Assembly (NCBI RefSeq): GCF_963678975.1
Contig: NC_089274.1
Span: forward strand, 23,211,133 to 23,275,132
DNA length: 64,000 bases
From: Dysidea avara
Taxonomy: Eukaryota; Porifera; Demospongiae; Dictyoceratida; Dysideidae
Direction of reading: 5' to 3'
The notes beneath the pieces were generated by a model. That model was not told the DNA's origin. It made no database searches and saw only the letters and a program-made list of their open reading frames with translations. Made by a program: the position numbers and the translations under genes. Every line of letters begins with the position of its first letter. Positions within the stretch are counted from its first letter, which is position 1. Below, piece by piece: positions 31,773 to 61,260 of the stretch.

Positions 31773-31929
31773 AGAACTGAACATACATTGAATTAGTTAG
31801 GTTTTCTGCTTGAAGTCGACTTGCATAAAAATATTGTACAAAAAAAATTATGATGCACTGTAGTTTCATATAAATATTATTAATTATAATAATACTACTG
31901 GATGTCAAAGAGGGGTGTGTGCAGGTAAA

Positions 31930-34832
31930 GAGGGCGTTGCACGTTTATACCTAGTTTCAGGGTTCGTGTGTACTGTAGTAAGTGCAAGTATTGTTCAGCT
32001 AATGGTGTACGCAACTTTCGTGACTCCTTTATCAGTCGATATTCCACGGGAATACACGACCGAAAATATTGGAATATCTTTACAACACGTGGAGTCAGCG
32101 AGAAATGCTACTAACAGCTGCACTCAATTGCTGCCATTCAAGAAGTCCATTGTTACTTCAGTTATTATGGACCAACTCTACTTAGTGTCATTGACAGCAG
32201 CCAGCAAGTTAATAATGCTAGCTTAATACTATCAGAGGAGAAGATGTTTGCAGATTTACTGCTCATAATTTATGAACATTCTTTTTCTACTGGTTTTCAT
32301 GCATTCAGGAACATTACTAAATCCCAAAATGTACTAATAGCAGCAATTTCTAGAGCTCATGAAGTGACAGGTACAAAACGATCACAACTTGTTTACAGTA
32401 GGAAATACGCCAAGTCTTTTGGTTGCAGTTTAGACCTGTTAAATATTATGCCCACATCTTTTCTTAGTAGCGACAGTGAAGACTGTTATGATTTTGTTAT
32501 CTATGCCGCTAAGCAACATAATTCTGTTTGGCTTGCCAAACCTTATGTTGGGGTGTTCGGTAAAGGAATTAAGTTTACAAGGAGTTGCTGCAATTATTGG
32601 AAAAGATCAATGTTTGTGAAGACAACAAAATGTTTCAGTATATAATTCAAGAGTATCTTTCTGATCTATTGTTGATTAAAGTTTGACATCAGAGCATACA
32701 TATTGATTGCTAGAACTGATCCATATTTCTTGTACTATCATACTGGTTATCTTAGAGTGGCAGTGAACAGACTTAGCCAGGGAGGCCCATCTAACTAACA
32801 CTCTGAAGGGTTTTCCTCTGACGATCACTTCTGGATGTTTGATAAGATTTCAGCAGTACATTAGTAACATCAGCTCCAATAAGGATCAGTTTGTTAAGAC
32901 AAGACTGAAACCAATAATAAAGCAAACTGGATTGTTCTTACTACAAGCAGGCAATGAATTAGTTATGACTCAAAATTTTGTGTGCTTAGTCCTTTTGGTT
33001 TTGGAGAGAGGGACTAGAGCAATTTGCACATGCCACTTGTCTCGTTCACTATTCATGCTCCCTGGTGAATGTATTCAACACTTATCATGGTTACACCACT
33101 TTCACAAACGATGAAGTCTTGTCGTTAAAATGCTTTCGTGGACCATAGGATCCTCAACATACACTGTAATAAGCCATGCCCACACTGGTCGGTAGTAGCT
33201 AGAGTTGCCAGATAACCCTACTGTACAGTTCTGGTGATGCACCAGGAAAGCTGTCTTGTATGCAATGCAAATGATGGAGTTACATGTGAAATCACTTTAA
33301 TGATGTTGATTTGTTTTCAATGCCAAAATAGGGATTTTCATTATACTTCATGTCTCTTTAGTGCACAAACCCTTTAATACCATTTTGGTATATAGCTAAC
33401 TGATAAAACAGCACAGACTTTAGAACTATCCAGTTATGAACATGCCATGGCGTTACTGAGCCACGAACATCTGCCAGCATCTTTATGAAAGATGGCTACA
33501 TGTGACTGCTGTTGTATAATTTACCTGGTTGTCATATTAGGGTGACTGCTTTATTAGAGTATTTTATATCTCACTGTTGCAATATCTGAGGTGAAGCTAT
33601 CCCACATAACAAATCATTAAGAGAGTATAGTGGCAGTGCTCTGTTTCTTGACGGATTGGTTGTACTAGATGGTTGATGAAAAAAGTGTATTGGGTATAAC
33701 TCATTTGTTCTTGCCTAACCGTTTTGGCATTTATAGGGCCCATGTAATTAGAAAACAAAAACAAGAGGCAGAGTCTTAGCAAACCTACGCAAAAGCACTA
33801 ATACAATAACGAGAAGTGATTTTTTTGATCTGGCCAGTCTGCTTGATCATGGTTGACACCCGACTGTGGAGGTTATGTAAAATAGTTCTGTGTGACTTTT
33901 GACAGTAGTCTTTTTGGGGATTCCATTTTGTTTTGGGGAGATCCCTATATTATTTGTGACTGTCCCAACAAAAACCAAATAGTTTGCACAATTTCCAAAT
34001 TTCTTTCATTTTCTCAGTATTATCCACAGTTGGTTATCAAAGTTATGGTGAGTAGAGGTTTTGGAAATATAGTGCTAGATAGACAGTACGATAGTATGAA
34101 ATTACAGGTGCTTTATTTAATTCGCAACCGTAACTTATTTTGTTACTTTGGTCTGCGGACTTGGAATTTGGCCTAAAATGTTCACCATGCATTGTCAAAT
34201 TCACCAAGGTGCAGTTATAGCCCTGTATTTACTGGCACATACAAGTATGAGGGCGTTTCTCTTTTGTTCTTGTGGCCTCAATGGTATGTGTGCTCCCTAA
34301 ACAATGTCTCGATTAAAACTGGTGTGTTTCTTTATGGCATGCATAATTTCACCTATTTTTGTATGTTAAAAAGTATACTAGTGCAAACTATGCGAGAGGT
34401 TTTGCTGTGAGGGTCACTACTTAGCAATATAAATGTAATGGTATTTTAGAAAGTCATGCTACATTTTAGGACTAGAAACATTTGAAAGACTACCAGCTAC
34501 ATACTTGTTGTTAGGGTTGGACTTTATGGTGACATCTAATTATCATGTGTGGTTCATTGAGGCTAACCATACTCCAATGTGGCCTAAAGAGGTGCCTTTT
34601 ATTTACACCATGGGGGTGAGTAGTGTTGACTGTAGCTGACTGTGCTATGTTGTTTGTTCTGCAGAGTGACATGTTGGATTTAGTAATTGAAATACACTTT
34701 TCTTCTGACAAGTTTGTTAACTCACAACCTGGTGAGAAGTATGGCAGCTGGGAACTAGTCTACAATGAACTGCTAGCTAACTGTTCAGGATATCAGTATA
34801 ATCCTTGTAGAGACTTTCCAATACAGTCATGA
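31930..34832 (+). pseudogene. TTL-like copy A, broken in exon 1
   Basis: Homologous to copies B and C but damaged. The N-terminal part (about 31940-32225) still shows a hydrophobic anchor (LYLVSGFVCTVVSASIVQL), then a frameshift. The central TTL region (32290-32640) reads VTGTKRSQLVYSRKYAKSFG and LAKPYVGVFGKGIK before a stop. KFDIRAYILIARTDPYFLYY (from about 32683) and the last part of exon 1 lie in other frames. The exon-1 donor is GC (after 32950) where B and C have GT. Exons 2 (34470-34615) and 3 (34665-34832) are open and nearly identical to those of C and B, including the WFIEANHTP motif. It starts about 150 bp after actin. A transcript from it could not encode a full enzyme. Confidence 0.75.
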
Positions 34833-35086
34833 CCAAAAATAAACACTCATAGTGAATTTACTTTAAAATTCACTTTATAACTTACGCATGTATAATACAT
34901 GATATCTTTTTATGGTGAATTACTCCAGACAACTGAATGTAGTTCTATAGGGGTGATAACAATATTCTATATCAAGCAGTACAGCTTTATAGCTATGGTT
35001 CCAAGCAGACCAATTTTACATCACAGCCAGACAGATTGTGTATTAATTTCAGAACAGATTTTTTTTCTTACCAGGGGTACAATAAA

Positions 35087-35450
35087 CAGTAGCGGATCTA
35101 GAAATTTTCAGAGGAAGTTTCAGGTTGAGGAAGTTTTCAATAACTGTCAGGGGCAAATCCAGACTTTTTGAAAGGGGAGTTCCACCATGGAATTGTAACT
35201 TCAGCCTAGCTTTAAGTCAAAAACCAAAAAAAAGTAATTACCTGCTGTTGAACGATGTAATGCTGAGCAAACTTAAGAAGTTTGGCCAGTAGAAAACCTA
35301 AATATAATACTCTATAACTCTTGGTGATGATGTTTTCACCTACACAATCGTGAATCGTCATCCACACAAATTGTAAATAAATTTGGGGCACGCGCTATTT
35401 TCAGAGGGGGTTTCGGCTGAAACCATTGCAACCCCCAGTATCCGCCACTG
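35087..35450. mobile_element. MITE, CAGTAGCGGATC ends, 5-bp target duplication
   Basis: It starts CAGTAGCGGATCTAG and ends TATCCGCCACTG, with ATAAA on both sides. A segment at about 35152-35220 matches the left end of the 8455-8726 element, suggesting nesting or a shared module. Upstream 34833-35086 shows nothing else. Confidence 0.65.
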
Positions 35451-36069
35451 ATAAATCCTTTGGACTCAATATACTCCTGCTTTCATCATGGAAAAGCTAG
35501 ATGTAGTACTGTACATAATGCAATTCAGAATATCACCACATTGCTGTGGTGCTTATCTAACAGTTAATTCATTTGTTTTACCATCAAGAACCGGACCTTT
35601 CATTAATAAATATCTTCCATGTTGAAATAGAAAAAGGTTATTGTTGTACGTATATGTGTCCTCTTCTTAGTTTTCTGAGATTTTTATGTAGTGGCATATC
35701 TGGTAGAGGTTTCATCAGGATCATACATGATGTTGCAATTCATACATTGGGTTAACTGTAAACTTTATGCAGTATACAACTTAGGTATATTGGACTTAGC
35801 ATTTCTTGTAAAAATTATAGCACTTTACAATGAGTATATTTGAATAGTTACATGGACTGTCTCGTCACTTTTCTCAATGAACAACAGGCACAAGAACATC
35901 TTTTAACAGAAGTTGTGTGATTGGGAAAGATGGAACAGAATGGACATTTTATGAGTGATTATCTCGATTCCTTGGAATACACCAAGAAAGTAACCATTTA
36001 TTAATCATCAGCCTGGTCAGCAGGAATGTAGGCATTGGATGCTCTGTTATCCTTGTTACATCTTGTAGC

Positions 36070-36305
36070 TGCTAATGTGCCAGCTCAGTGCATGTCATAG
36101 TATACATTGGGTGACCTGCAGTTCGAATCCTGGGGTTGGAGGGATTTTTTTCCATACTTGGCCCCTTTTCTGTTACACCTTATCAGTTATAAGTCATTAA
36201 ATCTAAGTCCTTGAAATCAGGTTAGGTAATCCTAAGGCTGCAGCACATGTTGCTGTCAGACCTTCAGTGCTGGTCACTGTAAAGTGTTAGCTAATAATAA
36301 TGTGT
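36070..36305 (+). mobile_element. tRNA-derived SINE
   Basis: A box-like CCAGCTCAGTG (about 36080) and a perfect B box GTTCGAATCC (36121-36130) are spaced as in a tRNA, followed by a body and the tail CCTTCAGTGCTGGTCACTGT ... AATAATAAT. The tail matches 431-470 and the SINEs near 49.4-49.8 kb. Confidence 0.7.
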
Positions 36306-36384
36306 ACTGTATACAGCTATGTGTCTGCATGACTGAATAAGTTAACAGTCAGGGGTTCTATACATACATGTATATGCATATGTA

Positions 36385-36942
36385 CAGTGGCGGATCTAAG
36401 ATTTTTAAAAGGGGGTTTCTGAAAATCGGTATAGCTAAATAAGGCATCTGATAACAATTCTCTGGAAAATTTTGAGCTGATTTTTGTTAGCGATTACAAT
36501 AAATTCAATACTTTAAAGGGAAAATGTGCTGTTTACAACATCTGACTATTTTGGGGCCCAACAAAATCTTGTGATGCTTGTACAGCGCATTGTCCCTTTA
36601 ATCTGTAAATAATTACTAAATACTATAGCTAACTATACAGGGCAAATATGGTGACTACAAGCTGTGGCTTTGATTGCTCTATTAGAGTAGTTACTTGACT
36701 GCTCTATTAGAGTATCTCGATCGTTTGTAATGTAGTGGAGATGAAAAATGAAGTGTTACTGATGGTTTAATAGCTATAAATGGTGTTAGTTAAATGCAAC
36801 TGCATGCATGCTACTGGTATATAGTTGTTTGCTATGACAAATTGTCAATTCAACAATGTTTATGTAATGAGAATGCCACTAAGCTAAATTTAAAAAGGGG
36901 GTTTCTGTCGAAACCCCAGAAACCCGTCTGGATCCGCCACTG
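36385..36942. mobile_element. MITE, CAGTGGCGGATC ends, 5-bp target duplication
   Basis: It starts CAGTGGCGGATCTAAG and ends TCTGGATCCGCCACTG. ATGTA lies on both sides (partly within a (GTAT)n stretch at 36943-36965). Subterminal AAAAGGGGGTTTCTG occurs near both ends. It has two copies of the CTCTATTAGAGTA motif in tandem (36675-36715). Confidence 0.7.
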
Positions 36943-37320
36943 ATGTATGTATGTATGTATGTATACTGTATATTTAACTGTTTGTAATGCTGTACATATG
37001 TATATACCACATTTCCCAAGTGTATATTGTGTAGTCTAGAATTTGAAAATCACAGCAGATGTATAGTAGAGATTTGGAGGACATGTAACATATTATGTGT
37101 ATGCTCTTTCCTCGTATTAGACATCGACAATATAAAACAGTAGCTATATGCAAGCAAATTACAGAAAAGCAGGTGCACATACATTTATAACTTAGAAGAC
37201 AGTCTGTCAATACTCCAACTTGCAGCTGTAGGCTGTCAGCTTTGAATTAATGACAGATATCTTAATACTCCTTCACAGTATGTTTGTCTACGGAAGTTAC
37301 ATTCCCTGTATATGATCCTA

Positions 37321-37459
37321 TACTGTGAATTCAAAAGTATGAATTGATACCAAAGGGATGGCTCCTGTGCATGGCAACCAAGTATGACCCTCATACTCAA
37401 GTTGCCACAGGAGCCATCCCTTTGGAATCAATTTCATACTTTTGAATTTTTACAGTGTA
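37321..37459. repeat. Compact near-perfect hairpin (58-bp arms)
   Basis: Arms 37321-37378 and 37401-37459 are inverted copies with a few bulges and a 22-base loop. Ends are TACTGTGAATTC / TTTTTACAGTGTA. This could be a tiny foldback MITE or a source of a small-RNA hairpin. No coding. Confidence 0.75.
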
Positions 37460-38108
37460 TATAAGCCTGTACTGTGAGTTGTTATATGCAAGTATGTAGT
37501 AATTATATTACTCTTTGCTTTCTATAGCAATAGAACCATGCATGGACTGGAATGTATCACATGGGGGGGAATGCTGAGTTCATTAAAAATGTGGCATCGA
37601 TTGTTACAGTACATGAAGTGGTCTTATTTAGTGAGGTTTTGAATTATGTTACAGTGCATGCGCGGTATGTGCATGTGGCTAACTACTTTTGGTGTAAAAG
37701 TCCACAACTCTAATTAATACCAAAGCATGCATGCAGTTGACAAGACTACCACAGCAGGGGCATAGGGAGGTTTAGGGTGTTGGGAAACCCCACTTTGAGT
37801 TTCCCACAGAACCTAATACACTAATTAGTTTGGGAACACAAAAATGAGTGAGTAACACTCTTACACTAGCTAGCATACGTATACAGCACAACAACATAAA
37901 ACCTACATTTGTCTCTCAAGGAAGTGTCTACAGAAGGGGACATAGACCCTCTTGAAAGTTTTCTTAAATACTCTAATAGAGCAGTCAAATATACTTCTAA
38001 TTATAATGCTACAATGTCTGGTCTAGAAATATTATATCCTTGCTGAAAAAACTTTGAAATCTAAATTAAATCATTTGATTGCTTCCAACGATAAAGTTCC
38101 TTCTTCAT

Positions 38109-38446
38109 AGGCGGCGGAAAGGGGGGGGGGGGGTAGGGGGCTAAAGCCCCCCCTCAGAATGATATCACACCGAAATTATCTTTCTTGGAGTGGGGCTGAA
38201 AACCGTGATAAAGATCGAGATACTCTAATAGAGCAGTCACTCTAATAAAGTAGTCAGTGTGTAGCGAGCTATGTAAGGATTTTTATGTAGTTTATCAGCT
38301 AGAAATGGTAGCTGGTGAGGTGGAAAGCTCTTGTCAGTTGGTTGTGACCTTTTTTTTTTTTTTTTGGTCTCACCTTACCAAACTATAGAAATAAGTCTGG
38401 GTCAGCTCAGCGGAGCCCCCCCTCATATCAACTACTTCCTCCGCCG
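38109..38446. mobile_element. MITE, GGCGGCGGA ends
   Basis: AGGCGGCGGAAAGG at the left and TTCCTCCGCCGCTG at the right are inverted, followed inward by GGGGGCTAAAGCCCCC-like palindromes. It carries TACTCTAATAGAGCAGTCA plus a partial second copy. A poly-G run is near 38120-38132 and a poly-T run near 38350-38365. Confidence 0.6.
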
Positions 38447-38649
38447 CTGTCCTTCTTACATTACAAATCTGTTAATACATGGTTATTTATATGACTGCTC
38501 TATTAGAGTATAATAGACTGCTCTATTAGAATATATCTCAATCTTTTTAAGGAAACTTTCAAGAGGATTCATGTCCCCTCTATATAGATTCTTCCTTTAG
38601 AGATACTGCTGGGAATATATATTTATGTATATCATGTGCTTGGTTGCAC

Positions 38650-38718
38650 ACATGCGCACGCACACACACACACACCAGCACAAGCAAGCAAGCACACACA
38701 CACACACCAGCACAAGCA

Positions 38719-38755
<37 letters not shown>

Positions 38756-38903
38756 ACACACACACAGACACACACACACACACACACCAGCACAAGCAAG
38801 TACACGCACACACACACACGCCAGCACAAGCAAGCACACACACCAGCACAAGCAAGTACACACACGCACGCACGCACGCACGCACATACACACACACATA
38901 CAT
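38650..38903. repeat. (CA)n with interspersed CCAGCACAAGCAAGC units
   Basis: A CA microsatellite in which the unit CAGCACAAGCAAG recurs six times, making a second-order minisatellite. No gene. Confidence 0.9.
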
Positions 38904-41514
38904 GCAAAGCAAAGTAAAGCCTTCAGACCAGTAATTTCTCCTGAGGTGCTACCCTGCAGGTTACTGTATCATGTCTCATGCACACCCACCCTCCTGAACC
39001 TCACCTGCATGTCGTGTGAGACATGGATGGTTGGCCCAGTTTCAGCACACAAATTAAGGCAGATTGGAGGAGTGTAACATAAATAATTCTGAAAGGAGGC
39101 ATTGCTCTCTCCTGTGAAAAGAATAGAATTGCAACATAGATTGCTGTGGTTGCATTTTTAGTGTTTTTAGTAAGATTATTGTCAAGCACCTTTGCACAAG
39201 GCAAGTAAATTTGCAGTTTTAAACTTTCTGTATATTTATGAGCTGTGTTTGCCTGCAACGGGAGTGTATGATGTAAGGTGTTGTGCAATGAATTGGATTA
39301 TGTAATGTTGTTTGCACAATCCACTACGTGATTTAGTGGATTATGTCTAGTCAGCTTTAATGTACGTAGCTCAATGATATACGTACTTTTAGTATACATG
39401 ATTTGAACTTAGCTACCTGTTAGAGTATTGGGCACAAACAGAGTTCACTTTCCTCACAGCTCAAAAATATAATAGCAGTACAACACAAAAAATTGTGCAC
39501 TTTTTCATAAAGCATGACACTTTCCACATAAGTAGTATTCCTCATGACATAATTTTTTTATATAGTGACATCGCAGATTTGACCTTTTATGGCCATCATT
39601 TCTGTCTTAATCTCCCTGAGACATTAATTAACTTGTAAATACCTGGGAGTTAAGTGACAGTAAAATAAAACTGGAACATGCATACCAAAGAAATTACAAA
39701 CAAAGAGTATAATATACTGTTTAAGGTGGACAATTCTATCTTGCTTTTTTTGTAAGGTGATTGGGATTGCATATTGGCATGATAACAATGCTGAATCAGT
39801 AGCTTCCCACCTTATAGGAAAGACCTTAACCACCTTTTAGCTGAAGCATTTGCAATTTAGTAAATCCTAATTCCTAATCACAAAAGGAGCATTTTATTGT
39901 ACAACCATAATATAAACTTTTAGTGCTCAAATTTCCAATTGCACCTTTGTATAAAACGACCTTCTCCAGCACCTTCAAGTCAGGGGTGGATTTTTTTTAT
40001 GAAGGGGGGGGGGGGGGGGTCTAAGGGGCTACACCTCCCCCACCCCTTCCTTTTTAACTATTAATACTTACCCATCATAACCGATTCTTCTTCCGTATTC
40101 CATTATTATTGCTATATGCATCTCTGACCTGCAGTTGACATTTAATCCCAAAGCTATATACTATTGACATGCTGTAATAGACTGAATGCTAACATGCCCA
40201 TTCAACTCTCCAAGCTGCTCATGAGCACAAATGTAGTAAGCCCGAGTATCAATTAATTTACTACTTCAGAACTGGACAGTGTCATTGCCAGGATGGTCAG
40301 TTTTACATGTATCACTGGGTTGGAGATAATTGTGGTGCAACCATATAATCATCATATGTTAAAACTAAAAGAACCTTAACAAGTACACGTACAATATTGA
40401 GAGGTCTCTCACAAACATTGTATATTAGACTTCAGGAAAGCCTATATAACCCTCCCCATGCATGCAGTCAAACTATTGGGGGGAAGGTGTTATTTGTAGC
40501 TTGCATATTTACTCACCATGTACTACGTAACTGAACAATCTACTATTATTAGCTAGAACCAATATTAATGTACATAGAGAGCTGTTCCTGGTCACTGTTC
40601 TCAAATTCTCCAACATCACTCCAAGGAGCCCTGTAAGGCCAGGCAAATTAATTTATAGTTTATTGTCACTGCCTGCATGGCATTTGAATACTGTTCCATA
40701 ATCTTATCACATGATGTCTTGAATACAGGTATCATATACCTCCTTATACATAGGGTATATAGAAAGAGTGGTCATGGGCGGATCATGAAGATCCCATGCA
40801 TGTTGACAGCATTGGATCTCAGCATTTATATCAAGATTGAGATATTCTAAAATGATATGCCTACAAATACTGTAATAATTAAAACAGTATATGCACTGTA
40901 AGACAATTACAACATTCCTAATGCATATACATACTATAGTACTCATTATCTAGTAGCTTACTCCACCTGTACATGTACCTCATGCTTATACAATGTATAT
41001 TTAATTATAACTGGCAGTGACATATCATATGAATCATAAAGCTTATAATGGATATATCTATAGCTAAAATGTATGAATTTTGAACTGTGAATCAGTGCAT
41101 GCACATTTCAATGTCCATAATGAAAATGACCACCTATCCCATGCTTTTTTGAAAATTCTTTTTATGTGTGATCTTGTGCAGCAGTGAGCACTGCTTATGA
41201 ATCTGGTTTTCTCTATCTATACCAGCTAGGTCAGCATTGTAACTGTTTACTACACTATACCATTTAATGATATGTGCATTTTTGATGGTGCGATATCTTG
41301 TTGATGCTCTAAATAAATGGATGTTTATCTGATTTTTGGGAAGGGGAAATCAGAAGTGATTGTGACTAGTCGCTTTCACTATACAGCAGTCATACGACTT
41401 CCATAATTTCAACAGATTGTGCAACAATAAATTTACCTTATGCGCTATATGCTATATGTGCGTACATAGAAAAGCTAATCAGATGGAAGTGGTACAATTA
41501 ACCTTCACTCTCTT
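38904..41514. other. Gene-free stretch
   Basis: AT-rich DNA with no supported coding. It contains a poly-G run (about 40005-40018) just inside a MITE-like start CAGGGGTGGATTTT at 39983, whose right end I could not find. No other structure was recognised. Confidence 0.5.
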
Positions 41515-41519
41515 GATAA

Positions 41520-42222: not shown

Positions 42223-42941
42223 ATATACCTAAAGGTATAATTGCCTATCCTCTGATTATACTTACCACAAAGTATGCATGTGCTAAACAAGTGCTTGAGT
42301 AACTGTTGACTATAGCTAGTACAAGCTATTAATCATTACGCACTGTAGTTTTTGAAGTTTACACATATGCACATACAGCATAATACATAACCTGTACCAA
42401 TTTTCTGTATTACTATGATGGGACTGCAATTTTTCATTTACTTTTTCTACAAATTATCGAGTTCATCAATACATGATCCCGATCAATATAATATACAACT
42501 CAGTAGCTGTAAAAAAAGTGTGCATCCAAGTAAAGCAGAGTTAACTTGACTGCGACAAAAAGTAATGATATACTAGAGCGCGACCATGTGTGAGGTATGC
42601 AAGCTGTAAATATCAATCAGATTTTTATTTTAATTTTATTTTTTTAATCAGATAGCTAGTACAATTATTAAAGTATTAGCTAATGGGTTTAACCTGAATT
42701 GTTTGATCGGTCAGTTAAAATATGTTCACTTGTAAACGGTGAATGCGAAGCCATGCCAACGTGTTGCTGTAAGATAAGGCATTTCGTTTTGAGAGCCGGC
42801 AATAAAATGTGATTGCTTCTTTTCCATGCCCCCCCAGCAGTTGCTGCAAAAAAGCTAACTCCACCTAACGAACTCGGTCACCATGCATACTCCCACTTCT
42901 TCTGCATCTCGTGACGTCTATAGACAGATGGTATTGATGCA
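42223..42941. other. Gene-free stretch
   Basis: AT-rich spacer between the MRH pseudogene and the upstream region of TTL copy B. I see no coding or repeat structure. Confidence 0.4.
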
Positions 42942-42954
42942 TTGTGGCAAAGGA

Positions 42955-43054
42955 GGAGCTGCAGGACACGTGGCAAAGTATTTGACTGTTCTATTAGAGT
43001 ATTAAGCGCCTATTTAAAAGCAACTGGCCACCGTAGGGGTGTGGCACGAGGAAG
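42955..43054 (+). promoter_or_regulatory. Upstream region of TTL copy B, shared with copy D
   Basis: These about 100 bases (CACGTGGCAAAGTATTTGAC, the CTATTAGAGTATTAAG motif, CGCCTATTTAAAAGCAACTG, GGGGTGTGGCACGAGGAAG) recur at 60848-60947 before copy D. TATTTAAA is TATA-like about 40 bp before the ATG. Promoter function is inferred from this and from conservation. Confidence 0.4.
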
Positions 43055-44833
43055 ATGCAAGTACACGAATCACGGAAGGCTAGGAAGACACTTGGAGCAC
43101 TGGTATACATTAGCATCGCCTTGTTACTGTTGTATGGATACTCCTTGTCAACCCGCGCGGTCCTCGTGCAAGAAGCACACGATGGCACTACTGACGTCAC
43201 AAAACTATTTACCGCGTTTCACAGCAAAAGCAACTACACAACTCGCAACTTTAACTGTACCTTTATACCAGCACAGATTGCGAAAGCACGCCACTATTTC
43301 TACCTTTTTGGAAGGGCGAAAGTGAAAGTGATAATGGAGGTCTGTGCTGCAAAGGGCTGGAAGTGGGAGTTCCTACCTAATAATACCATGATACCACATC
43401 TAATGGAGTCAACCTACGCAGACTCTCTGTACATAATTCAGGACAGGTCAAATATATTTGATCACAGCTTCATCAAGGAAATCACTGGAGCAAGACACGT
43501 GCTAGTATCAACCATCTCAGAAGCTCACAAGGTCACCGGCTCAAAGAATTCTCAGCTAATATATAGCAGAAAACTGGCTAAGTCATTTGGATGCACCTTG
43601 GATGATTTGAAGTTTATTCCCAAATCATTTCTTTCCTCAGAAATCAAAGAATGTTCAGACTTTGTTACATATGCTACTAATAAGCCCGAATCTATGTGGC
43701 TACTGAAACCATATAAAGGAATTTGTGGAAATGGGATAAAACTTTATCCAAATGTGTCATCATTATTGAGAATAATTATTAGCACATGTGGCAATCAGTC
43801 TAACTGGAGAAATCGGTACGTCATTCAGGAGTACCTTCCTAATCTTCTACTATTAAATGGGAGAAAGTTTGACATCAGAGCATACATATTGATTGCTAGA
43901 ACTAACCCATACTTTGTATTCTACCATCGTGGTTTTCTAAGGCTGACGGTAACTAAATTTAGTAAAACTGGTGGAAGAGATGCTCACTTAACCAACATAC
44001 ACTTGCAGGGGAACATCAAAGGATATTCACTAGAGGAACATATCTGGACTTATGATAAATTTCAACAATATTTGAGCAACATTAGCTCCAAAAATGACTA
44101 CTTTGTTCAGAAAAGGCTTGAGCCAATAATTAAGCAAACAGCCATATTTTTACTCCAAGCAGGTAGGCCACAATGCAATTTGAATTGGTTCTTGAGTTGT
44201 TGTTTTATATTTAAAAGCTTATACTGGTACTGCACTGTATTATGGGTGATATTGTTGTTATCACTGTATTATGGGTGATATTGTTGTTATCACTGTATTA
44301 TGGGTGATATTGTTGTTATCACTGTATTATGGGTGATATTGTTGTTATCACTGTATTATGGGTGATATTGTTGTTATCACTGTATTATGGGTGATATTGT
44401 TGTTATTACGTAGTTACATACTAGACACATGTTAGTTAACAAAAATTAGTGGAAAACTTGAAATGCATTTTTTTCATACAGGACTAGGAACATTTGAAAG
44501 ACTACCAGCTACGTACTTGTTGTTAGGGTTGGACTTTATGGTGACATCTGATTATCATGTGTGGTTCATTGAGGCTAATAATACCCCATTGTGGCCTAAT
44601 TCATACAACATGGCGGTAAGAATAATACACTTGGTTGTTCACTATATGCCTTGGTGTTATTGCAGAGTGACATGTTGGATTTGGTAATTGAAATACACTC
44701 ATCTCCAGACAAGTTTGTTAACTTACAACCTGGTGAGAAGTATGGCAGCTGGGAACTAGTCTACAATGAACTGCTAGCTAACTGTTCAGGATATCAGTAT
44801 AATCCTTGTAGAGATTTTCCAATACAGTCATAA
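43055..44833 (+). CDS. Membrane-anchored tubulin-tyrosine-ligase-like protein, copy B (intact)
   Basis: ATP-grasp ligase of the TTL family by motif: LLKPYKGICGNGI (about residue 217, ATP lysine and glycine loop), VIQEYLPNLLLL, GRKFDIRAYIL (about 268, Lys/Asp/Arg catalytic set) and GLDFMVTSDYHVWFIEAN (about 398, metal-binding Glu/Asn). Exons 43055-44162, 44482-44615 and 44666-44833 splice in phase to 469 aa. Unlike cytosolic TTL/TTLL enzymes, it starts with a basic stretch and a hydrophobic helix (residues 13-30, type II signal-anchor). Sequons follow (N60, N67 and others), and several Cys are shared with copy C (SFGCTL, GICGNG). Predicted topology places the catalytic domain in the secretory lumen, so tubulin is unlikely as substrate; the true substrate is unknown. 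An alternative is a cytosolic enzyme with a hydrophobic N-terminus. Intron 1 holds six 29-bp repeats. Confidence 0.85.
44232..44405. repeat. Tandem repeat, six 29-bp units
   Basis: Six virtually identical units CACTGTATTATGGGTGATAT+TGTTGTTAT in intron 1 of TTL copy B. Confidence 0.95.
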
Positions 44834-45862
44834 ATTGGTTATATACCACTAGCAGATGGAAGTATCTGTCTATTAGAGTAAAGTCTCATCACAATGAACA
44901 GACAGACAGACAGGCAAATGTGTCTAGAGAGCAATTCAGGACCAAGCTAATTGTGAATAACAAATACTATACATAGCTACACAGTAAATTCAAATGGATC
45001 AATTCAACCTCCATGGGTAAATTTAAACTACAAACTTTTTTTTGTTAAAATGACCATCTAAAAGTGGTTATAATTAGGGTAGGCTTTTGGACTAAATCAG
45101 TCAAAATAACTAAGGTAGGTCAATATAACTGTTCACTTAGGATGTTGAAATAACATATTTGGGTAATTTCAGTGTGCTTGGTCAAGTCTACTATGGCACA
45201 GACAAAATGACCAGCTACATGGTTAAATTTACAGTACACTGGCCATTATAACATTTGTGTTACATCCCACAATCAAAAGTGAACTTGGAGAACATAGGTT
45301 TTATATACAATTTGAAAACTCCATAAGATCAGGTATGTTTAAAGTATTAAAATGCAGTACGTAACAATTACTGTGAATATGTGTCATAGATAGATTAATG
45401 TATGTTAATAATACTAATGATGACTGACTTGTTAATTAAAGTAAACAAACAAATAAACAAATATTTTGTGACGTGAGTTAATTTTATCACAGATGGTTAA
45501 AATGACCATGATGGCAAGGTTATTTCAAACACTTGGCTAGAGGTTGAAGAGACTTTAGGGCATCTGGGTAATATGACTATATCTAACAAAGTTAAAATAA
45601 CCAAGTACATCCTTGGGTCATTACTACCAAAAAATCGGTTGTTTGAATTGCAGGTAAAACAACCCAAAAATTTTTGGGTCATTTGTGCTCATTTGAATTT
45701 ACAGTTAACCATAGGAATGCTACTAGTTTATAGTCTCCTAGATCAGGTTCACCAGCATCAAAATACTTTAGTGTTTGCCTGGTATTGTTACATGGAATCA
45801 ATATTTACACAAGCATTGTATGTATAGCACAGGCAGGATAGCACCTGGTAGTTATGTACAAA
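44834..45862. other. Gene-free stretch
   Basis: 3' flank of TTL copy B. One CTATTAGAGTA relic near 44870 and a (GACA)n patch near 44900. No coding or structured element recognised. Confidence 0.4.
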
Positions 45863-46085
45863 TATAGTGGAACCTCAGTTATCCGGACCCCACTTATCTG
45901 TATTCTTGGTTAACTGAACTATGAAAATGACCGTTCTATTAGAGTAGTAACTGTTCTATTAGGGTAGTTGATAATACTGAAATTTAAAAAAATGTTCTTT
46001 ATGCACAGTTTCAGAGATACGGACTTTTTAGACTTATGGACCACCCCTGATCCCAAGGGGTTCAGATAACTGAGGTTTCACTATA
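45863..46085. mobile_element. Pogo/Tigger-type MITE
   Basis: Ends TATAGTGGAACCTCAGTTAT and AACTGAGGTTTCACTATA are inverted, with TA at the borders. Contains CGTTCTATTAGAGTAG and a second, mutated copy, as in the other pogo-type elements of this window. Confidence 0.7.
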
Positions 46086-49437: not shown

Positions 49438-49544
49438 GTGTCCATTTGGTTCTACTTGGGGTACTTAAAGATAATGAGTTACTCTTTAGAATTACTATGG
49501 ATATAGTTACATGAAAATAACAAGGAGAAAATAACAAGGAGAAA

Positions 49545-49757: not shown

Positions 49758-50040
49758 AAACTCTGTACAGCTGATAAAAACCACCTTTTGGTTACGCCAC
49801 TGAATTAGACATAGAAACTTTTAAGTCATGGAAATTTAGCTGTATCAATTAAGATATATCAGATTTATATATGTGTCAACATAACTAGTGCTAGCTAACT
49901 AAACATTAAATAATTAATAAGTACAGTAATAATAATACAAAAATAAACCATGCTTGTTCTGTATTAGAATGAATGGCAGTTTTAACAGTTTGCGTGCCAT
50001 AAAGAAGAACTGCGACATACTATGTGTCGTTCATCATGTG

Positions 50041-50547: not shown

Positions 50548-50859
50548 ATCATATGTCCCATTATGCAAGCAAGTTGTTAGTATAATTATGCATACATGCT
50601 GACAAGAGCATTACTTGATTCCACAATAGAAAATGTACATAGCTAGCTAGCTACCACTTGCCACTTTTTGAAGTGGAAATAGTGTTGTATGGACATATAT
50701 TATCCCTCTGGCTAAAATCTGAAATAATAAAACAAGACTGCTATACACATTCATACAGCAATTAGCCGTGAAAGTTTTGTAGTGCTATATGGCTAGTAAT
50801 TATAGAGCATCATATGTATGGCAAGTATAGTCCAAGGAACTAAACCAAAAGCATTTTGG

Positions 50860-53400
50860 AAAATGTTAACTCTAGGATGAAGACTCGTCCTACGATTGAA
50901 GAGTTGCATAAATCTGATGATCCATCTACATCTTCACATTCAGAAATGGTTCAGTAGTATGTTTAATGAGTATTTTTCTAGTGTTCAGTTTTACTTCTGA
51001 AGATGATTTTATTCCACCACTTCATAGTGATAGTTCACCTTCAATCATTGACACATTCAGTTGGTTATTACACCACAGTTGGTATTATCTAAACTTACAA
51101 ACTTAGAAAGTAGTAAATCTCCTGGTCCTGATGGTTGGCCAACTGCATTAATCAAAAGTACAGCAGATTTTATCTGTTTTCCTTTGTCTCTTTTATACAG
51201 TAAATCCCTTACTACTAGCAATGTTTTACCAAATGAAAAAACATATATTACACCTTTTCACAAAAGAGGACCTCATAATCTTGCTTCAAATTATCGCTTT
51301 ACTTCCACCATAGTTAAAACAATGGAGTCTATTGTCAAGGATAATATCTTGAGTCATATTTTAGACAGAGGAGGTATGACACGCACACATGAACGCACAG
51401 TGTTTATTCTAGGATTTCTCCTTTGGGGGGAAATCAGGAATTTTGGGGGTGACCAGGTGAAAGTCTGCTATATAGTTGTCCAAGTTCACAACTAAGTAAA
51501 ACACTTGAAGTAGTTTCCAAACACTGGTTAGCCATTTAAGGCTGTGTCATGAGTGCAGTTGATTTTGATTTTTGTGATTGGGCAAAGCCAGATTATATGA
51601 TCAGGCTTTCTGAGATTAAATCTGGAGGGTATTTATGGTGGCTGTGTGTGCCATTGAAAGTAGAAATTTCTACAAATTACACTTTCCGGCTGAGATTAAA
51701 TTTAAGGACAATTTTGAGAGTTAAGCATACTAGTTAGAAAAAACTGGGTAGACTTGGGCTCTCAGATGAATAGCCATCACTATATGCATAAAATTTTGTT
51801 TGTTGTATATGTACCCTAGCAGATTTTTAAAAATTGATTGATCTGATACTGAATCTGAGAGCATTTTAAGGTTGCGTTTGCAATTTTTAACCTGGGAAAT
51901 TTTTACATATTAACCACTCTGAGATTGAATCTAAGAGCATTTTTGGTATGCCGTTTTAAAAACAAGCTTGACCTAAGTACAGTGTAGTAGTCACAATTTT
52001 AGGAGTGAGTCTGTGAGATTTTAGGGGGGGAAGTTCCCCCCTAACAGCCCTAGAATAAACACTGTGAGCGCATATGCTTTGTACAGGGAAGCTAGGGGTT
52101 ATCCCATGAATGTCTTCTTATGAAACTACAGTCTATTGGAATAACTGGTAATGCCTGGAAGTGGTTTGAAGCCTATCTTAAACCTCGCTATCAATGTGTC
52201 AAAATATAGGGACTCATATTCTGAGCTATGTAATGTATTTTCAGGGGTTCCTCAAGGGAGTGTGTTAGGACCTCTACTGCATGTTCGTCATCTTTATCAA
52301 TGACCTGCCTAATTGTATTAGATCTACAATTCCTTTCATATTTGCTGATGATACAAAGTGCCTTCATGTAATCAGATCCACTGAGGATACCAGAAAACTA
52401 CAAACTGATATTAATAATGCTTCTAGCTGGAGCACCACATCATACCTACTCTTCAATGAATCAAAATTTATTCACCTTCGCTTTTATCCAACAACCACAA
52501 CAGATCATCCAACTAATACCATCAATGGAAACCCCATTACAACACAAAGATTTTGGTGTAACTTTCTCATCCAATTTTAACTGGTCAGCACATTATAACA
52601 TTACATCCACAAAAGCTTATCAAACACTAGGACTCATCAGATGAACTTTTAAAACTATCTGTATCAATGCTAAGAAACAACTATATATACATTGCACTAG
52701 TTCGATCTCAACTTCTGTACCGTTCACAACTATGGAGACTACAACTAATAAAAGATATCACCATGTTAGAATGCATACAACGTAGAGCTACTAAATACAT
52801 CTTAAATGCCTATACTTCATCATACAAATCTAGACCGCAACAAATGAATCTATACTGCCACTTATGTATACCTACAAACTTCATGACCTAATGTTCTTTA
52901 TAAAATCTTTAAAATCACCAACAGATAACTTTAATATCAATTATCACTTTTGCTAGCAGTACTACGAGGTCTGGAACCCACCAAAAGTTAATTCACCCAA
53001 GGAAATCAACAGCAACTCAGCACCATTTTTACTTTAACAGAATCGCAAGACTTTATAACTGTTTACCAGTCTTAGACCTATCATTATCTACTAACATAAT
53101 CAAGCATCACATAACTAACTACTTCTGGACTCATTTTACTGACAACTTTAAATCTGAGAGAGCCTGTACGTACCATTTTCTATGTCCTTGTTATCGTTGC
53201 TCTAGGGGAACCAATCCCCACCAACTTCAATCAATTGTAATTATTAGTATAGCTGTAATAGTGTAAGTAGTGTGTAATTGTAATAAGTATATTGTAATAA
53301 TTTGTGTGTATGTATATTTTCCCTGGCTGCGGGTACATGTTGCCCACAGGCCATTAATGCAGGTTTACCCTGCATTAAAAAGCATTTAAAATAAATACGA
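50860..53400 (+). mobile_element. Non-LTR retrotransposon remnant (reverse transcriptase), interrupted
   Basis: Reverse-transcriptase blocks in broken frames: SSKSPGPDGWPTALIKS and ITPFHKRGPHNLASNYR (51100-51310), FSGVPQGSVLGPLL (about 52240), FIFADDTK (catalytic motif, about 52340) and the C-terminal LYRSQLWRLQLIKDITMLEC and IQRRATKYILNAYTS (52690-52830). A 3' tail ending AAATAAATACGAAAAAT closes it near 53400. This is the jockey/CR1-like LINE layout. Frameshifts and stops make it inactive. A hAT MITE sits inside. Confidence 0.8.
51398..52064. mobile_element. hAT MITE nested in the LINE
   Basis: CAGTGTTTATTCTAGG and its exact reverse complement bound the element. Flanks TGAACGCA (51390-51397) and TGAGCGCA (52065-52072) are an 8-bp target duplication with one mismatch. 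Removing it restores the LINE sequence context. The interior has GGGGGG/CCCCCC subterminal palindromes. Confidence 0.85.
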
Positions 53401-53931
53401 AAAATACGTGCCGATCGAACTCTTTTCTTATGCTTAATTCAACGGTGCAATCTACCCAATTCAACCCCAGTGGTTTAGTTTCGATATACGTATACCAGCC
53501 TATTGGAGGAACCGTCACGTGATGAATAATAACCCATAGATATCAAGTTAGGTTTTCGTCTGCCATTTTCTGCGCCTGGCTAATCTTTGCTGTCTCTGTT
53601 CAGGGGTTTCCCGAATTCTCCGTGCTCTATATTGCTCCTTCCGTCGTCTTCAGCACTCTTTCTTCTTGTTCCATTTTAATGACTTGTAATGGTTGACCCT
53701 ACCGTACGAGCCTTATTCGGAGTGTCAGTAAACTATACTGTGATTCTTCCGATTTTAATTAGCAATCGTCAAGCCACCGAACTTTAATGCATACAATAGT
53801 TAGCTATTATAAGTAATTAATCGTTTTTCTCCGCTTTTTATTGTACATGGTTCACCCTACGAAACTTTTCGCTAGCGTGGGGCTTGCGCTCAGGCTCGCC
53901 CCAATTATCTCAAAAATTTAAACGAGAAAGT
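53401..53931. other. Upstream region of TTL copy C
   Basis: No coding. Contains TATTGGAGGAACCGTCACGT (CACGTGA near 53517). Promoter elements for copy C would lie here but none is certain. It has no similarity to the upstream region shared by B and D. Confidence 0.35.
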
Positions 53932-56900
53932 ATGCTAAACCTTAAAGGTTTGATATCTACATTAGTGTGCATCGTTGTGGTGTCCCTATTCACATATGGC
54001 TACTGGCTGTCTACTAGTACACTTCTGCTCAACGATGAAAGCATCACGCATCTGTACCGCCACGCCCCCAACAGCAGCAGAGATCTAGAGATGTACATGC
54101 TTTCCGATCCTTCAAACGAATATATTTCCAACACATCAAAATGTGAGATGTGTATGTCAGCACAGCTACTACCATTAACAGCAGTACAAGATTGCTTTTA
54201 CATGTTCAAGATAACTGCAGTGGTTCCTATAGTGGAAATCTGTCGCAATAGACACTGGAAATGGAGGGTAGTAAAAGATAGTGAGACAATCATATTCAAG
54301 ATGAAGAAATTTAACAATTCTCTTTTTATACTTCATGAAACTCCAACTGCTTTTCGTCATAGCTTCTTCAGGAAAATGACTGGATCTAAACATCAGCTGG
54401 TTGCCACAATCTCAAAATCTCATAGAATATTTGGTACAAAGATGGCACAACTTATTTACAGCAGAAGATTGGTAAAATCATTTGGGTGCACTCTGGACCA
54501 ATTAAAATTTTCTCCTAAATCTTTTCTTGCCTCAGATAAAAGTGATTGTTTTGATTTTTTCTCGTATGCTGCAAAATATCTTAAAACCAAATGGGTTCTC
54601 AAGCCATATGGCGGAATTTGTGGAAATGGCATTGAGATTTTTCAAGACACACCATCAATGGTGACAAGGCTGAATCACAAGTGTGGTGTTAAGTCTAGTT
54701 GGAGAAAAAACCAGTACATAATTCAAGAATACCTTCCCAATCTATTATTGCTTAATGGGAGAAAGTTTGACATCAGAGCATACATATTGATTGCTAGAAC
54801 TGATCCATATTTCTTGTACTATCATCCTGGTTATCTGAGAGTGGCAGTTAACAGACTTAATGAAGCAGGTGGAAGGGAGGCCCAACTAACTAATACCCAT
54901 ATCCAAGTGAGCATTGAAGGATTCTCTCCTGAGGAACACTTTAGGACTTTTCATAAACTTCAGCAATACATTAGTAACACAAGTTCTGACTGATTATTTT
55001 GTTCAGACAAAACTTGAGCCATTTATCAAACAGACAGGATTGTTTTGGCTACAAGCAGGTCAGTGGTATATTTATAGTATAATTATTGGAGGGGAATTGT
55101 TGGATGTAAAGAAAAGTATCTTTTAAGTCACTTTGGCAAAAACAACAGCACATTTACTGTACTGATTTTGATCATTGAAGCAGGGGCGTAGCCAGACTTT
55201 TGCAATTAAGAGGCTAAAGATGAAATGCTTTCAGTTGGTCTAACATGCTGCTAACTTTTCAGTGTCTCAGTGTGCATGTCAACATGATTAATGATCAAAA
55301 TGAAGCACCCATCATCTGGCTTAGGGATGCATTGATTTCACTGGAAAATTTTTGGCATAATGGGTGGGTAAAAGCAATGAGCAAAATGCTGGCATAATAG
55401 GTGCAATTTTTGTGAAGTAGACATAAAAAATTGCACAAAAGATCGAGATACTCTAATAGAACAGTCACATGTGATAAAATGTCAACAATGCATAGCTAAT
55501 TGTTATTAGAAACCATGTTGTTCAACTCCTGACTTGCATGCAAGAAGTTGTTAGTTTAAAATCCAACTAAATTTTTCTGACCATACTGTTTTGTACATAC
55601 ATTTTACTTTATAGTTCACAGTTACTCGACATCCAAAAAAGACATTGATTATTGAGGATTTTTTGATAAAACTAAACACCAGCCATCTTACAACTCAAAT
55701 ATTGTTGTTGCAAATCATTGCATACTTTTGTTCATTCTATACAACACATATGGTGTGTAGGGTAGACTCACTGATCAGTTGACTGGATTCCTATTAAACC
55801 ACAGACAAGCAGCTTTAATTTGGTGTTTGGGACACATCAACTTAGTTAGTTGTTTCACTGGCCTGACCAACGCACTTTTTCATAGATTAAAAGATTAAAG
55901 TAAATTAAATTTTTTTGTAAGCTAAAAAATCAAGCTGAATTATCGCCAAAAACTCAAAGCATCAGCCTTGTACTCTTTCTAATGCACTTTAACGATACTG
56001 TTCACAACAGAAATAACAAATTACAGGTAGGTGGGGGGGTGGCCTCAACAAAATGTCACAACTTTACATGACTAAACTTTTTTGTGCAATTTGTTCATGT
56101 GTTTTTGTGCACATGTATTACTGGCATACAAGTCACCATCTAGTCTGAGATAATAGAGCAAGTCCTACACTGTAGGGGCAGGCATCAGTGCTATATAGTA
56201 ACACAATATAGTTAGGAAATAGATACCTTAGGATGCAAAGGTCAACCTGGAGGTATCCCTCCCCTCCCCTCCCTCCTTCAGGAATTGTTTTGAAAATTAG
56301 ATCACCTGATATTGAACCTGAGAATGATTTTGGCAACTAATATTCCTGCTCAGTACACTCTTAGAAAGACTTTGATAATACTTGTAGTGATAGCTAGGTA
56401 TCCTGTTGCCATTATGTGTAAACGTTTGTATCCTCCTTGCCCATATAAGCAAAACCTTTAATGCTAAAAGCAGTCTGTATTTGAGAAATACAGGCCATTA
56501 TGCGTGCGTTAAGCATCCAGGCAGGCACACAGCCGCTGCAGGGTGCATGCCAGAAATTTTATAGTAAGAAGTTATTATATATCCAATTTAGTTGTATGAC
56601 ACTGTGATTAAGTTTCCATGGAAACAGATCAACATACAGGTTTTCCAATAAGTAGTATATACTACTTCAGTGTTACCAGATCTAAACAGTAGCATGTAAG
56701 GTATTGTAACCACTTTTCTATCATATTCAACTAAGTGCATGAGTGGGAGGATTATAAGTACTTTATGGTAGCTATATATACAAAATGACTGTGACTTCAG
56801 AATAAAATGTGTTATTGATTTCAAAAAAAAACCAAGTTGTTCTTTAGAGTGAGCTCTATAATTCTATGGCAGATGTTAACTATTTATTTGAAGCCTAATG

Positions 56901-57541
56901 GAGATAGAAAGGACCATTCTCAGTAGAAAAGTGGCCATAAAGGTCAACAAAGGTCAAATCTGAGATGGCCAAAATCTTTCTGAAGGACTGTCCTAGCACT
57001 GTGCCAAATTTCATGATTATTATGAAAAGCACAATTTTGCCAAAATTGCCATGAAATATTGTTATTGTTATTAGTGCTTTACATATGCTGTATTATCATG
57101 CCCAAGATCATGCCTAATCAACAGACAAACTATCAAAGTTCACTTGCAACGTGATAGACTGTTTGTGGCTATCTAGCTGTTTATTTTCAGGATTGCGGAC
57201 ATTTGAAAGACTACCAGCTACATACTTGTTGTTAGGATTGGACTTTATAGTGACATCTGATTATCATGTGTGGTTCATTGAGGCTAACCATACTCCATTG
57301 TGGCCTAAAGAGGTGCCATTTATTTACACCATGGGGGTGAGTAGTGTTGACTGTGGCTGACTGTGCTATGTTGTTTGTTCTGCAGAGTGACATGTTGGAT
57401 TTAGTAATTAAAATACACTCTTCTCCAGAGAAGTTTGCTAGCTCACAACCTGGTGAGAAGTATGGCAGCTGGGAACTAGTCTACAATGAACTGTTAGCTC
57501 ACGATTATAATCCTTGTAAAGATTTTCCAATGCAGTCATAA
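53932..57541 (+). pseudogene. Membrane-anchored TTL-like copy C, one frameshift
   Basis: Exons 53932-55058, 57191-57336 and 57386-57541 correspond to those of copy B. From ATG 53932 the frame encodes a short basic start, a hydrophobic anchor (LISTLVCIVVVSLFTYGYWL), sequons (NSS, NTS, NNS), shared Cys, VLKPYGGICGNGIEI, IIQEYLPNLLLLNGRKFDIR and so on, all intact, until codon about 353. There, after NTSS, C has two bases fewer than A and B, shifting into TGA at 54991-54993. The other frame continues YFVQTKLEPFIKQTGLFWLQ to a good donor, and exons 2 and 3 are open (WFIEANHTP). So it is either a very recent pseudogene or an assembly error. If the two bases are real in life, the protein would be about 440 aa. 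Intron 1 (2.1 kb) holds a CAGGGGCGTAGCCAGAC transposon end at 55181. Confidence 0.7.
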
Positions 57542-58839
57542 TAGCTTATTGCATGGTTAAAATGATACTTCTGTTCATTCCCTGATTACTTTATGTTTCT
57601 CCCAGATTATTTTCATAGGCATTCCAGTATCAGAATTTTTAAGACTTTCTCCTTAAATTCCTCAATAGAACCTCAGTACATAATTACAACATGTGTTTAG
57701 CTTAATTGTCTCATCTGAGCTATAAAGACAAAACTCATTATGGGGTTTGTCAATACTGTGGCACTGAGCACTGTTTAGTTTTATCATGCATATCAGTTCT
57801 AAGTAAGTTTTGTGTTGTTTTGAAATGTTAGTAGTGTATAAAGAAAACTCTGAAACCATATAATATGCTGTCAGGTGGAAGGTATTCAGTATACTTTAAA
57901 GTGCATGGGTATAGTTACTTTGCTGCATGGTTAGCAATTTTCAGCTGCACAATAATTTTCTGATGGTTGTATGATACCATGCATGCAACTCTAAAATACA
58001 AACCACTGGTATTGTATACGTGAATGGCATAACCTCAACTCTGCATGCCTTGGGAACTGTTGCATTATACTTCCAATCATAAGATAGCCACCTGATAGCT
58101 ATCGTATACAACACTAGTACTATGCTAGACAGATTTGGATGTATTAGTTGAAACATCTTTGCTCACCACAACTGAGTCCAGCAAGCCCTAAAGCAGTCAC
58201 AATTTCAAGCAGGCTACTACTAGATTGTTACCTTCATAATTCCAATTGTGCCATTGTAATAATGCACGAGAGAAAATGTATGATACTGTGGTAAAGGCCA
58301 AAGTAACCTAATATTAAATTATACATTTCTGCGTGAGATCGACAATCAATAATCTATCATTTAAGTATGTACATAAAAGTGCACTTTTCTAGAATTTAAA
58401 AATCTGGCCCACGATAGTTAATGAGTTGAAATGAGCTCAACTACATCATCAATAATTTATCTCAATTCACTGGCATAAGGCCTGGCATAAACTTAATTAT
58501 TAGTTTCTCGTCCTCACCCGCATCGCCGTTATTCTTACTTCATCCAGGATTTTTTACACCACTGGTGGCTAAGTGAGGCCAATCAGCACCTTTTACTTGC
58601 TAGAGCAGTCTAAGAAAATTGCATTTTGAGTCATTTTAGCTAGCTAATTCAGCTATCTAGTTAGAAAAAAAAAAATTTAAATCCACCCTCCCATGCTGCT
58701 ATTTTGAGTACAGGAGGATGAGAAACTAATTATTGAGTTTATGTGGCCTATAGCTAAACTGGAAACTTTTTCTGGAGGATCTAAAAATTCAAATATTTTT
58801 GTGATCTAGAATTTGACAATAATTTCATTCAATTAATTG
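57542..58839. other. Gene-free stretch
   Basis: 3' flank of TTL copy C, AT-rich. I see no gene, RNA or clear repeat. Confidence 0.4.
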
Positions 58840-60800
58840 AAGAACCCCCCATGTTGGAAGAAATTTATACTTGATCTTATTCTCACGAACAGTGATGAAT
58901 TAATGTGTGATTTGTTAACTGGCCCCTAATACTGTCCTCTCTTCTGATCACTTTATAATTACTTTTCATGTATGTTTGTCTATTTCATCAGCTCCACTAA
59001 ATAATAGATATTGGTCTTATGACTATACGTACTCAAAAGCAGAGTCTTACAGAAATGGAAAACATCAATTCATCTATTTTGATCTAACAAATGTATAGAG
59101 TCTATTTGGAACATTGTTAGTTCAGCTATAACCGATGCCATATCTCTGTTCATCCCCATGTATTAATCATATCAATTACAATATCTTGCATGGTTTAACA
59201 GTAATCTCAAATGAAATGTTTGTGTACTCGGAGAAGAGCATGTAGATGCTCACCTACCACTCACCCCCGTCTTATACAATCTGATGAACATTTCCAACAG
59301 AGCACCATACATGACAAACTATGAAACTTCTCTCATCAATAATTTTGCCTTTGGTTCAACCTTAGTGATTTATCACTACGTGTACAAACAAAGTTTAAAT
59401 CAATTGCATCCAAAGTCTATTTAGACTCTTTTACAGCTACTTGTGATTAATCCAAAGCAGAGCTATCAATTGCTATTTCCATTCAGTATTTAAAGCAACA
59501 CAATTAACTCATTCAATTTAAGCTGAGTTTTTTTGAGGCTCTAGACACCTCCAAAGCAGTTGGTAGCTTTTGACAACATCAGTCTTAGAGTACTTATAAA
59601 CACGGTGCAGTGTCTTTGTCTCATCCTTTATGTTATTTATTCAATCTTAAGTTTATCTACTAGTGGATCACAAGAGTGTAAAACTCACACAATCTACAAG
59701 GCAATTGACTGCATGCTCTCTACACCACTGTCCTATATCCTTGCTATCTAATGCTTGCAAAGTGTTGGAAAAACAAGATTATAGTGAAATTTAATATGTG
59801 CTTGGCACAATCTCCACTGTTCAATTTGGCTATATTCAGGGTAGATCAAACAGCTCTTATTATTTCTAAACTACATCTATGAAGCAGTCTATATATGGCC
59901 ACCAATTAAAAAGCTAGACTTCAACTTCCAAAAGGCTTTTGACATGGTTCAACATAACAAATTACTTATATACCAAATTGTGGAGAATAGGCATCTATGG
60001 AAACTTATGGAAGTGAACTACATACGTGACTGATTGCAGACATTATAAATACCAAGAGTTTATAATGTACCTATCTGATACTTTACCAGTGTTATCTGGG
60101 GGTTCCACAAGGAAGTATCCTTGACCCTCTATTGTTCTAATCAGTGAATTTACCATCAGAAGTCATTTCATCAGAACTTTTTCAGTTTGCTGATGGTACG
60201 AAATTATTAAAAATCATGCATCTTTCTCAAATATATAGCCTACTTTTACAAAAGGATTTGGATTCCTACAACTGGAGCCATAGCTATAACAAATCCTACT
60301 TTAGAATTCTCAAATGTGTGTTCCTTAGTTTTAATAACATCATACAGTCCCAATATGCTACAACATCTAAATAAACATTGGGATCTTGGTGTACAGATAT
60401 CAAAAGATCTATCCTGAGAGATGATCTGCTCCAAGGCATATAAATTATTGAGAGAGTAACATACATACACTTGAGAGAGTACACATGCAGAGGTGTGCCA
60501 CTAAGTATATTTTGAATGATTACTCTTCTGATTATAAAATATATACATAGACGTTTAATTAAATTAAAACTCCTTCCATTGATGTATAGTCTTGATTACT
60601 ATATGTTTTGTGAAATCTTCAAACAGTGCTAACCAAGTGATCACTTCAACATTTTGAGGACAAACTCAGCTATTTTCTACGAACAAAAAAATTCATAACT
60701 TCTATTTCAATTGACTTCCTAGGCTGTGGAATACCCTTCTCCCAATCAATACCTGGACACAATCAGGTCAGTGATTTATGACTGAACACAATTGGAATCA
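58840..60800 (+). mobile_element. Second decayed LINE
   Basis: Fragments across frames: LDLILTNSDEL and SSDH (end of the endonuclease domain, 58870-58960), LDFQKAFDMVQHNKLL (RT motif A, about 59920), GGSTRKYP-like remnant of the PQGS block (about 60100) and LFQFADGTKLL (60180, FADD mutated to FADG). More degenerate than the 50.9-53.4 kb copy. It ends just before TTL fragment D. Confidence 0.7.
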
Positions 60801-60847
60801 TTTTTACAGAACACCTTAACCCAAATAATTCATGTACCTGTGGTACA

Positions 60848-61260
60848 TGTGGCAAAGCATTTGACTGTTCCATTAGAGTATATTTTCATACTTAAGCGCC
60901 TATTAAAGACAACTGCATGGCCACTGTAGGGGCGTGGCACGAGGAAGATGCAAGTGTACAAAGCACGGCAGTCTAGGAAGACACTTGGAGCATTGGTATA
61001 CATTAGCATCGCCTTGTTACTGTTTTATGGATACTCCTTGTCAACCCGCACAATCCCCATGCAAGAAGCACACGACATTGTGCCACTGCATGGCACCACC
61101 GACGTCACAAAGCTACGTATTTACCACGTTTCATACTCGGCAAAAGTAGCTACACAACTCACAGCTTTAACTGTACTTTTATACCAGCCACACAGATCGC
61201 AAAAGCACGTCACTATACTTCTACCTTTTTGGAAGGGCGAAAGTGAAAGTGATAATGGTG
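60848..61260 (+). pseudogene. TTL-like copy D, 5' fragment
   Basis: Duplicates the upstream region and first about 95 codons of copy B (MQVYKARQSRKTLGALVYIS, anchor included, starting at 60948). An indel after DVTKL throws the rest out of frame, and similarity stops abruptly at 61257 (...AAAGTGATAATGG), where B continues into its TTL domain. No TTL catalytic part follows. It retains the CCATTAGAGTAT motif and GGGGCGTGGCACGAGGAAG upstream block. Confidence 0.8.

Follow-up and report, generated by a model that had tools for sequence, protein, structure and literature searches.

A secreted TTL-like ligase domain was predicted in the animal protein C7orf58 by Anantharaman and Aravind in 2010 (PMC2824669); the paper predicts that this TTL-like ATP-grasp domain acts on cell-surface polymers, and it describes a secreted protein in which the domain is joined to cadherin-like and PC-esterase domains. 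The sponge locus described here contains an intact gene, copy B, which also has a TTL-like ATP-grasp domain, with secretory targeting judged from hydropathy and charge only. In contrast to C7orf58 (now named CPED1), copy B is stand-alone and predicted to be membrane-anchored, a distinction drawn against the description of C7orf58; no PC-esterase or cadherin-like fusion was detected by Pfam analysis at E≤1 in copy B, which ends at residue 469. An earlier sequence-only reading had called a lumenal TTL-like ligase undescribed, which was too strong in view of the 2010 prediction for C7orf58 (PMC2824669). The concept of a secretory-side TTL-like ligase is prior art, and copy B departs from C7orf58 by its stand-alone architecture and its predicted signal-anchor. 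Among the matches listed in the open-licence literature, none described a TTL protein that is both stand-alone and anchored, and in the literature searched amino-acid ligation in the animal secretory pathway is predicted, without demonstration.

Copy B resembles the TTL/TTLL family (PF03133; e.g., Xenopus TTL, Protein Data Bank entry 3tig) in its ATP-grasp domain and aligned catalytic positions and differs from it by an N-terminal signal-anchor and a predicted lumenal side. By analogy only, the FAM20 family, which includes the active kinase FAM20C, offers a precedent for a type II anchored protein with an ATP site in the secretory pathway. FAM20A is a pseudokinase within this family of Golgi type II proteins, as stated in PMC10948845. 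In contrast to copy B, FAM20 proteins have a kinase fold without ligase chemistry.

The window, i.e., the whole stretch of 64,000 nucleotides that was analysed (G000:C3:23211133-23275132), belongs to a 551-Mb assembly of 108 contigs. Comparison of the spliced copy-B protein with all frames of the window revealed four related copies on the same strand, designated A to D:

31930..32952 (start approximate), + strand: copy A pseudogene, remnant of exon 1 interrupted by stops and frameshifts
34470..34615 (end approximate), + strand: copy A exon 2, open
34665..34832, + strand: copy A exon 3, open; DNA 95.8% identical to copy B over 55 codons
43055..44162, + strand: copy B exon 1, with start codon, predicted signal-anchor, stalk and first part of the TTL domain (residues 1-369 plus one base)
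43091..43147, + strand: copy B hydrophobic helix, residues 13-31, mean Kyte-Doolittle hydropathy 1.95
43706..43738, + strand: copy B KPYKGICGNGI, residues 218-228, aligned to the TTL ATP lysine and glycine-rich loop
43859..43879, + strand: copy B GRKFDIR, residues 269-275
44482..44615, + strand: copy B exon 2, with GLDFMV and WFIEANNTP
44666..44833, + strand: copy B exon 3, ending at the stop codon; two cysteines in the tail
53932..55060, + strand: copy C exon 1, with an open frame of 353 codons up to 54990 that includes the helix and two motifs
57191..57336 (end approximate), + strand: copy C exon 2
57386..57541, + strand: copy C exon 3 with stop
60948..61257, + strand: copy D, related to B, with start, predicted anchor and part of the stalk; frameshifted

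An intact gene model was obtained for one of the four copies, copy B (43055-44833), which has three exons separated by GT..AG introns, encodes 469 residues and ends at a stop codon. Copy A is a broken pseudogene, in which KPYVGVFGKGI is followed by stops and frameshifts, then by FDIR and finally by IEAN in the open exon 2; its hydrophobic stretch has no in-frame ATG ahead of it. Copy C carries KPYGGICGNGI and GRKFDIR before a frameshift near 54988, late in exon 1, after which matching sequence continues up to about 55060 and IEAN follows in exon 2; one of its two C-terminal cysteines is lost. Copy D (60948-61257) is an N-terminal fragment in which no TTL motif was found. The sequence-only reading had described a tandem family of four ligases, all keeping the TTL motif set. 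The four related same-strand stretches stand, and exons 2 and 3 of A (34470-34832) and C (57191-57541) extend them; "family of ligases" was too strong for an array with one intact copy in four, and the motif set is complete in B, split by a frameshift in C, degraded in A and missing from D. An array of four intact ligases was ruled out, copy B alone being intact.

The copies differ in patches in their DNA identity. Between A and C, identity reaches 95% in a 301-base stretch that begins in exon 2 and ends in exon 3, 97% in 98 bases surrounding FDIR and 91% in a further 34 bases, and it falls to 74 to 82% in three other aligned patches. In exons 2 and 3, B is 86% identical to A and 82% to C, and D is 83 to 92% identical to B, beginning about 90 bases ahead of the start codon. 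This patchwork of identity between the copies (31500-35200, 42700-45000 and 53400-58200) suggests tandem duplication as the origin of the array, accompanied by some gene conversion; A, C and D would then be decayed copies, and A and C probably exchanged sequence. Comparison of B with C by NG86 gave dN values of 0.14 to 0.70 against dS values of 0.96 to 2.26, with dN below dS in all four computable blocks of six; no value was obtained for the whole exon, for the other two blocks or for B-A exon 3, and none by YN00. The B-C values fit past purifying selection and are silent on copy B alone today.

Searching the whole 551-Mb assembly with copy B, exon by exon and with all 24 candidates scored, revealed at least 21 matches, at least 13 of them in the array and at least 8 elsewhere at 26 to 36% identity (these counts are lower bounds). 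No further array member was found in this search, and no copy-B match at E≤0.01 was present in the 20 kb before and the 30 kb after the window (L009-L013). A Pfam TTL search of the genome gave 27 matches, three of them inside the array, and copy B is 24 to 41% identical to other TTL-domain loci of this genome over the matched stretches. With respect to a prokaryotic or viral origin, none of 146 pattern matches in viral contigs and none of 105 in genome contigs was confirmed as a relative; these scans used two short peptides each, taken from a two-sequence alignment, and count as weak negative evidence. The TTL gene at L015 (G000:C13:4840500-4847500) shows the highest identity to B outside the array, 36 to 38% in matches of at least 80 residues. 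Coding pieces upstream of it resemble an NlpC/P60-type domain by eye, and two of the pieces have no Pfam match.

The decay of A, C and D, and the failure of the assembly search to find another member, would fit a dying gene family in which B, too, is without expression or function, an explanation that overlaps with the other alternatives considered below. We regard it as improbable: copy B keeps an open frame through all three exons, has GT..AG introns and ends in a stop codon, and dN lies below dS against C in the four computable blocks, although the latter speaks for past selection only.

Analysis of the copy-B protein by Pfam identified a TTL domain (PF03133) at residues 181-422 with E=1.2e-36 and 126.9 bits against a cut-off of 20.1, and exon 1 of copy C gave E=5.4e-20 and 72.2 bits against the same cut-off. 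The best solved structure for copy B was Xenopus TTL (3tig; E=1.7e-17). Alignment of copy B with 3tig placed K218, KFDIR, the D of GLDFMV, E400 and N402 opposite their TTL counterparts, and the motifs WLLK, RKFDIR, GLDFMV and FIEAN of copy B sit on WIAK, RKFDIR, GFDFMV and LIEVN of TTL. By its Pfam match, copy B belongs to the TTL family of ATP-grasp proteins, and in the alignment its main catalytic positions correspond to those of Xenopus TTL; in TTL, these residues take part in ATP and metal binding. Besides TTL, the Pfam matches at E≤1 were YheC/D-like (PF14398; 34.7 bits) and GSH-S_ATP. The YheC/D-like match is uninformative because another TTL gene of the same genome, L001, has the same secondary match (42 bits). 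Assignment to a YheC/D-type bacterial ligase was rejected on these grounds, the TTL score of copy B being the higher one.

A catalytically altered or inactive copy B, lumen-facing and serving as a pseudoenzyme or binding protein, is rather unlikely, since the examined TTL catalytic positions align. What speaks for it is the fast-diverging N-terminal half and the breakage of three copies. Disrupted active sites are also described for teleost and mollusc C7orf58 in PMC2824669.

After an in-frame stop at 43034, the first ATG is the one at 43055, and the next one in frame comes only at codon 94. From this start, copy B begins with a charged tail followed by a single hydrophobic helix (residues 13-31), which shares its exon with KPYKGICGNGI and GRKFDIR. 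L001, the single control, read as a stop-to-stop frame, has a hydropathy peak of 0.92. Net charges before and after the helix are +3/-2 in B, +1/-2 in C and +4/-1 in D, for flanks of 6 to 16 residues chosen by the analyst. By the positive-inside rule, the flanking charges of B predict a type II topology with the TTL domain in the lumen.

The helix is kept in copy C, where it peaks at 2.1, though B and C encode the same residue at just 25% of the first 60 aligned codons. In a drift simulation of the first 36 codons of copy B (4,000 runs per level, at 0.3, 0.6, 1.0 and 1.5 substitutions per site), 22.8, 14.3, 10.7 and 9.6% of the runs, respectively, remained open at all, and 2.7, 1.0, 0.45 and 0.3% remained open with such a helix; about 3 to 4% of the open runs kept the helix at 1 to 1.5 substitutions per site. 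Equal hydropathy over 19 residues was reached by 168 of 2,258 overlapping open 40-codon stretches of the window (7%). A chance helix is unlikely but not very unlikely, and the test of helix retention is no more than suggestive. The case is strengthened by the flanking charges, by the start codon and by the recurrence of the helix in several copies, which are not independent of one another. Of the type II signal-anchor proposed by the sequence-only reading, the N-terminal hydrophobic segment was confirmed; the stretch in copy A lacks a preceding in-frame ATG, and the topology is still a prediction.

The predicted N-terminal anchor speaks against copy B residing in the cytosol as the characterised TTL members do. 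A cytosolic TTL domain, reached by the opposite orientation or by a start at codon 94 and acting on tubulin like its relatives, would agree with the in-frame ATG at that codon, with helix evidence that is only moderate and with the fact that characterised TTL/TTLL enzymes are cytosolic. It is nevertheless unlikely on the strength of the charge pattern in B, C and D, the open N-terminal frame with its helix retained in C and the position of the B helix in one exon with KPYKGICGNGI and GRKFDIR. The lumen-facing ligase claimed from the sequence at the outset is the best reading of copy B, as judged from the helix, the +3/-2 charges and the shared exon, with the lumenal side now worded as probable.

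N-glycosylation sequons were another part of that claim. After residue 35, copy B has 8 sequons compared with 3.8 in shuffles (P=0.03), one of them being the catalytic EANNT, and exon 1 of copy C has 4 compared with 2.1 (P=0.15); L001 has 2. Sequons are present in B and C, but their excess is weak and unconvincing alone. Copy B contains 8 cysteines in 469 residues, none in the helix and six in exon 1, and all six of the latter are matched in copy C, which bears out the earlier claim of shared cysteines for these two copies. C224 of copy B takes the position of a lysine in TTL. The cysteines of copy B may form disulfides. Because L001, a cytosolic-type control, has more cysteines (12 in 429 residues), the argument lies in the shared positions and not in the count. 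Neither the sequon excess nor the cysteine count was kept as an argument, in view of the weak P values and the cysteine-richer L001.

Overall, the evidence on copy B is moderate, and we lean towards a single-pass type II protein of the ER/Golgi with a lumenal TTL-type ATP-grasp domain that would join an amino acid to a substrate. We infer ligase activity, with an amino-acid donor and a substrate, by the following putative route. With ATP and magnesium, the lumenal domain would activate a carboxylate on its target, either a protein of the secretory pathway or cell surface or a glycan, to which an amino acid would then be joined, with chemistry as in cytosolic TTL/TTLL enzymes acting on tubulin. 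A more specific proposal, made tentatively and considered less likely than not, is that the animal has a dedicated amino-acid ligase of the TTL family in the ER/Golgi, stand-alone and of type II topology, which post-translationally attaches residues such as glutamate, glycine or tyrosine to proteins that are secreted or belong to the matrix. Should the predicted topology hold, the ATP-dependent ligation of amino acids, a reaction known from cytosolic tubulin, would also occur on the secretory side of the animal cell, and copy B would be a simple stand-alone enzyme for testing the 2010 prediction on the multi-domain C7orf58.

In the neighbourhood of the array, a gene resembling fascin (28555-29877, - strand) and a gene resembling actin with one intron (30553-31772, + strand) were recognised by eye; a long proline-rich open reading frame at 9629-11122 (- strand) resembles, likewise by eye, a formin FH1 region. 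Pieces of reverse-transcriptase-like open reading frames lie between and after the copies (51052-52580 and 62884-63276), and retroelements may have contributed to rearrangements there. The sequence GTTCTATTAGAGTA, allowing at most one mismatch, occurs at 17 places in the window on both strands, compared with 0.02 expected in shuffles (examples are 1448-1461, 15070-15083, 42988-43001, 45933-45946 and 55449-55462). Copy B has one occurrence immediately upstream, and D is preceded by a variant; GTTCTATTAGAGTA is perhaps part of a dispersed repeat.
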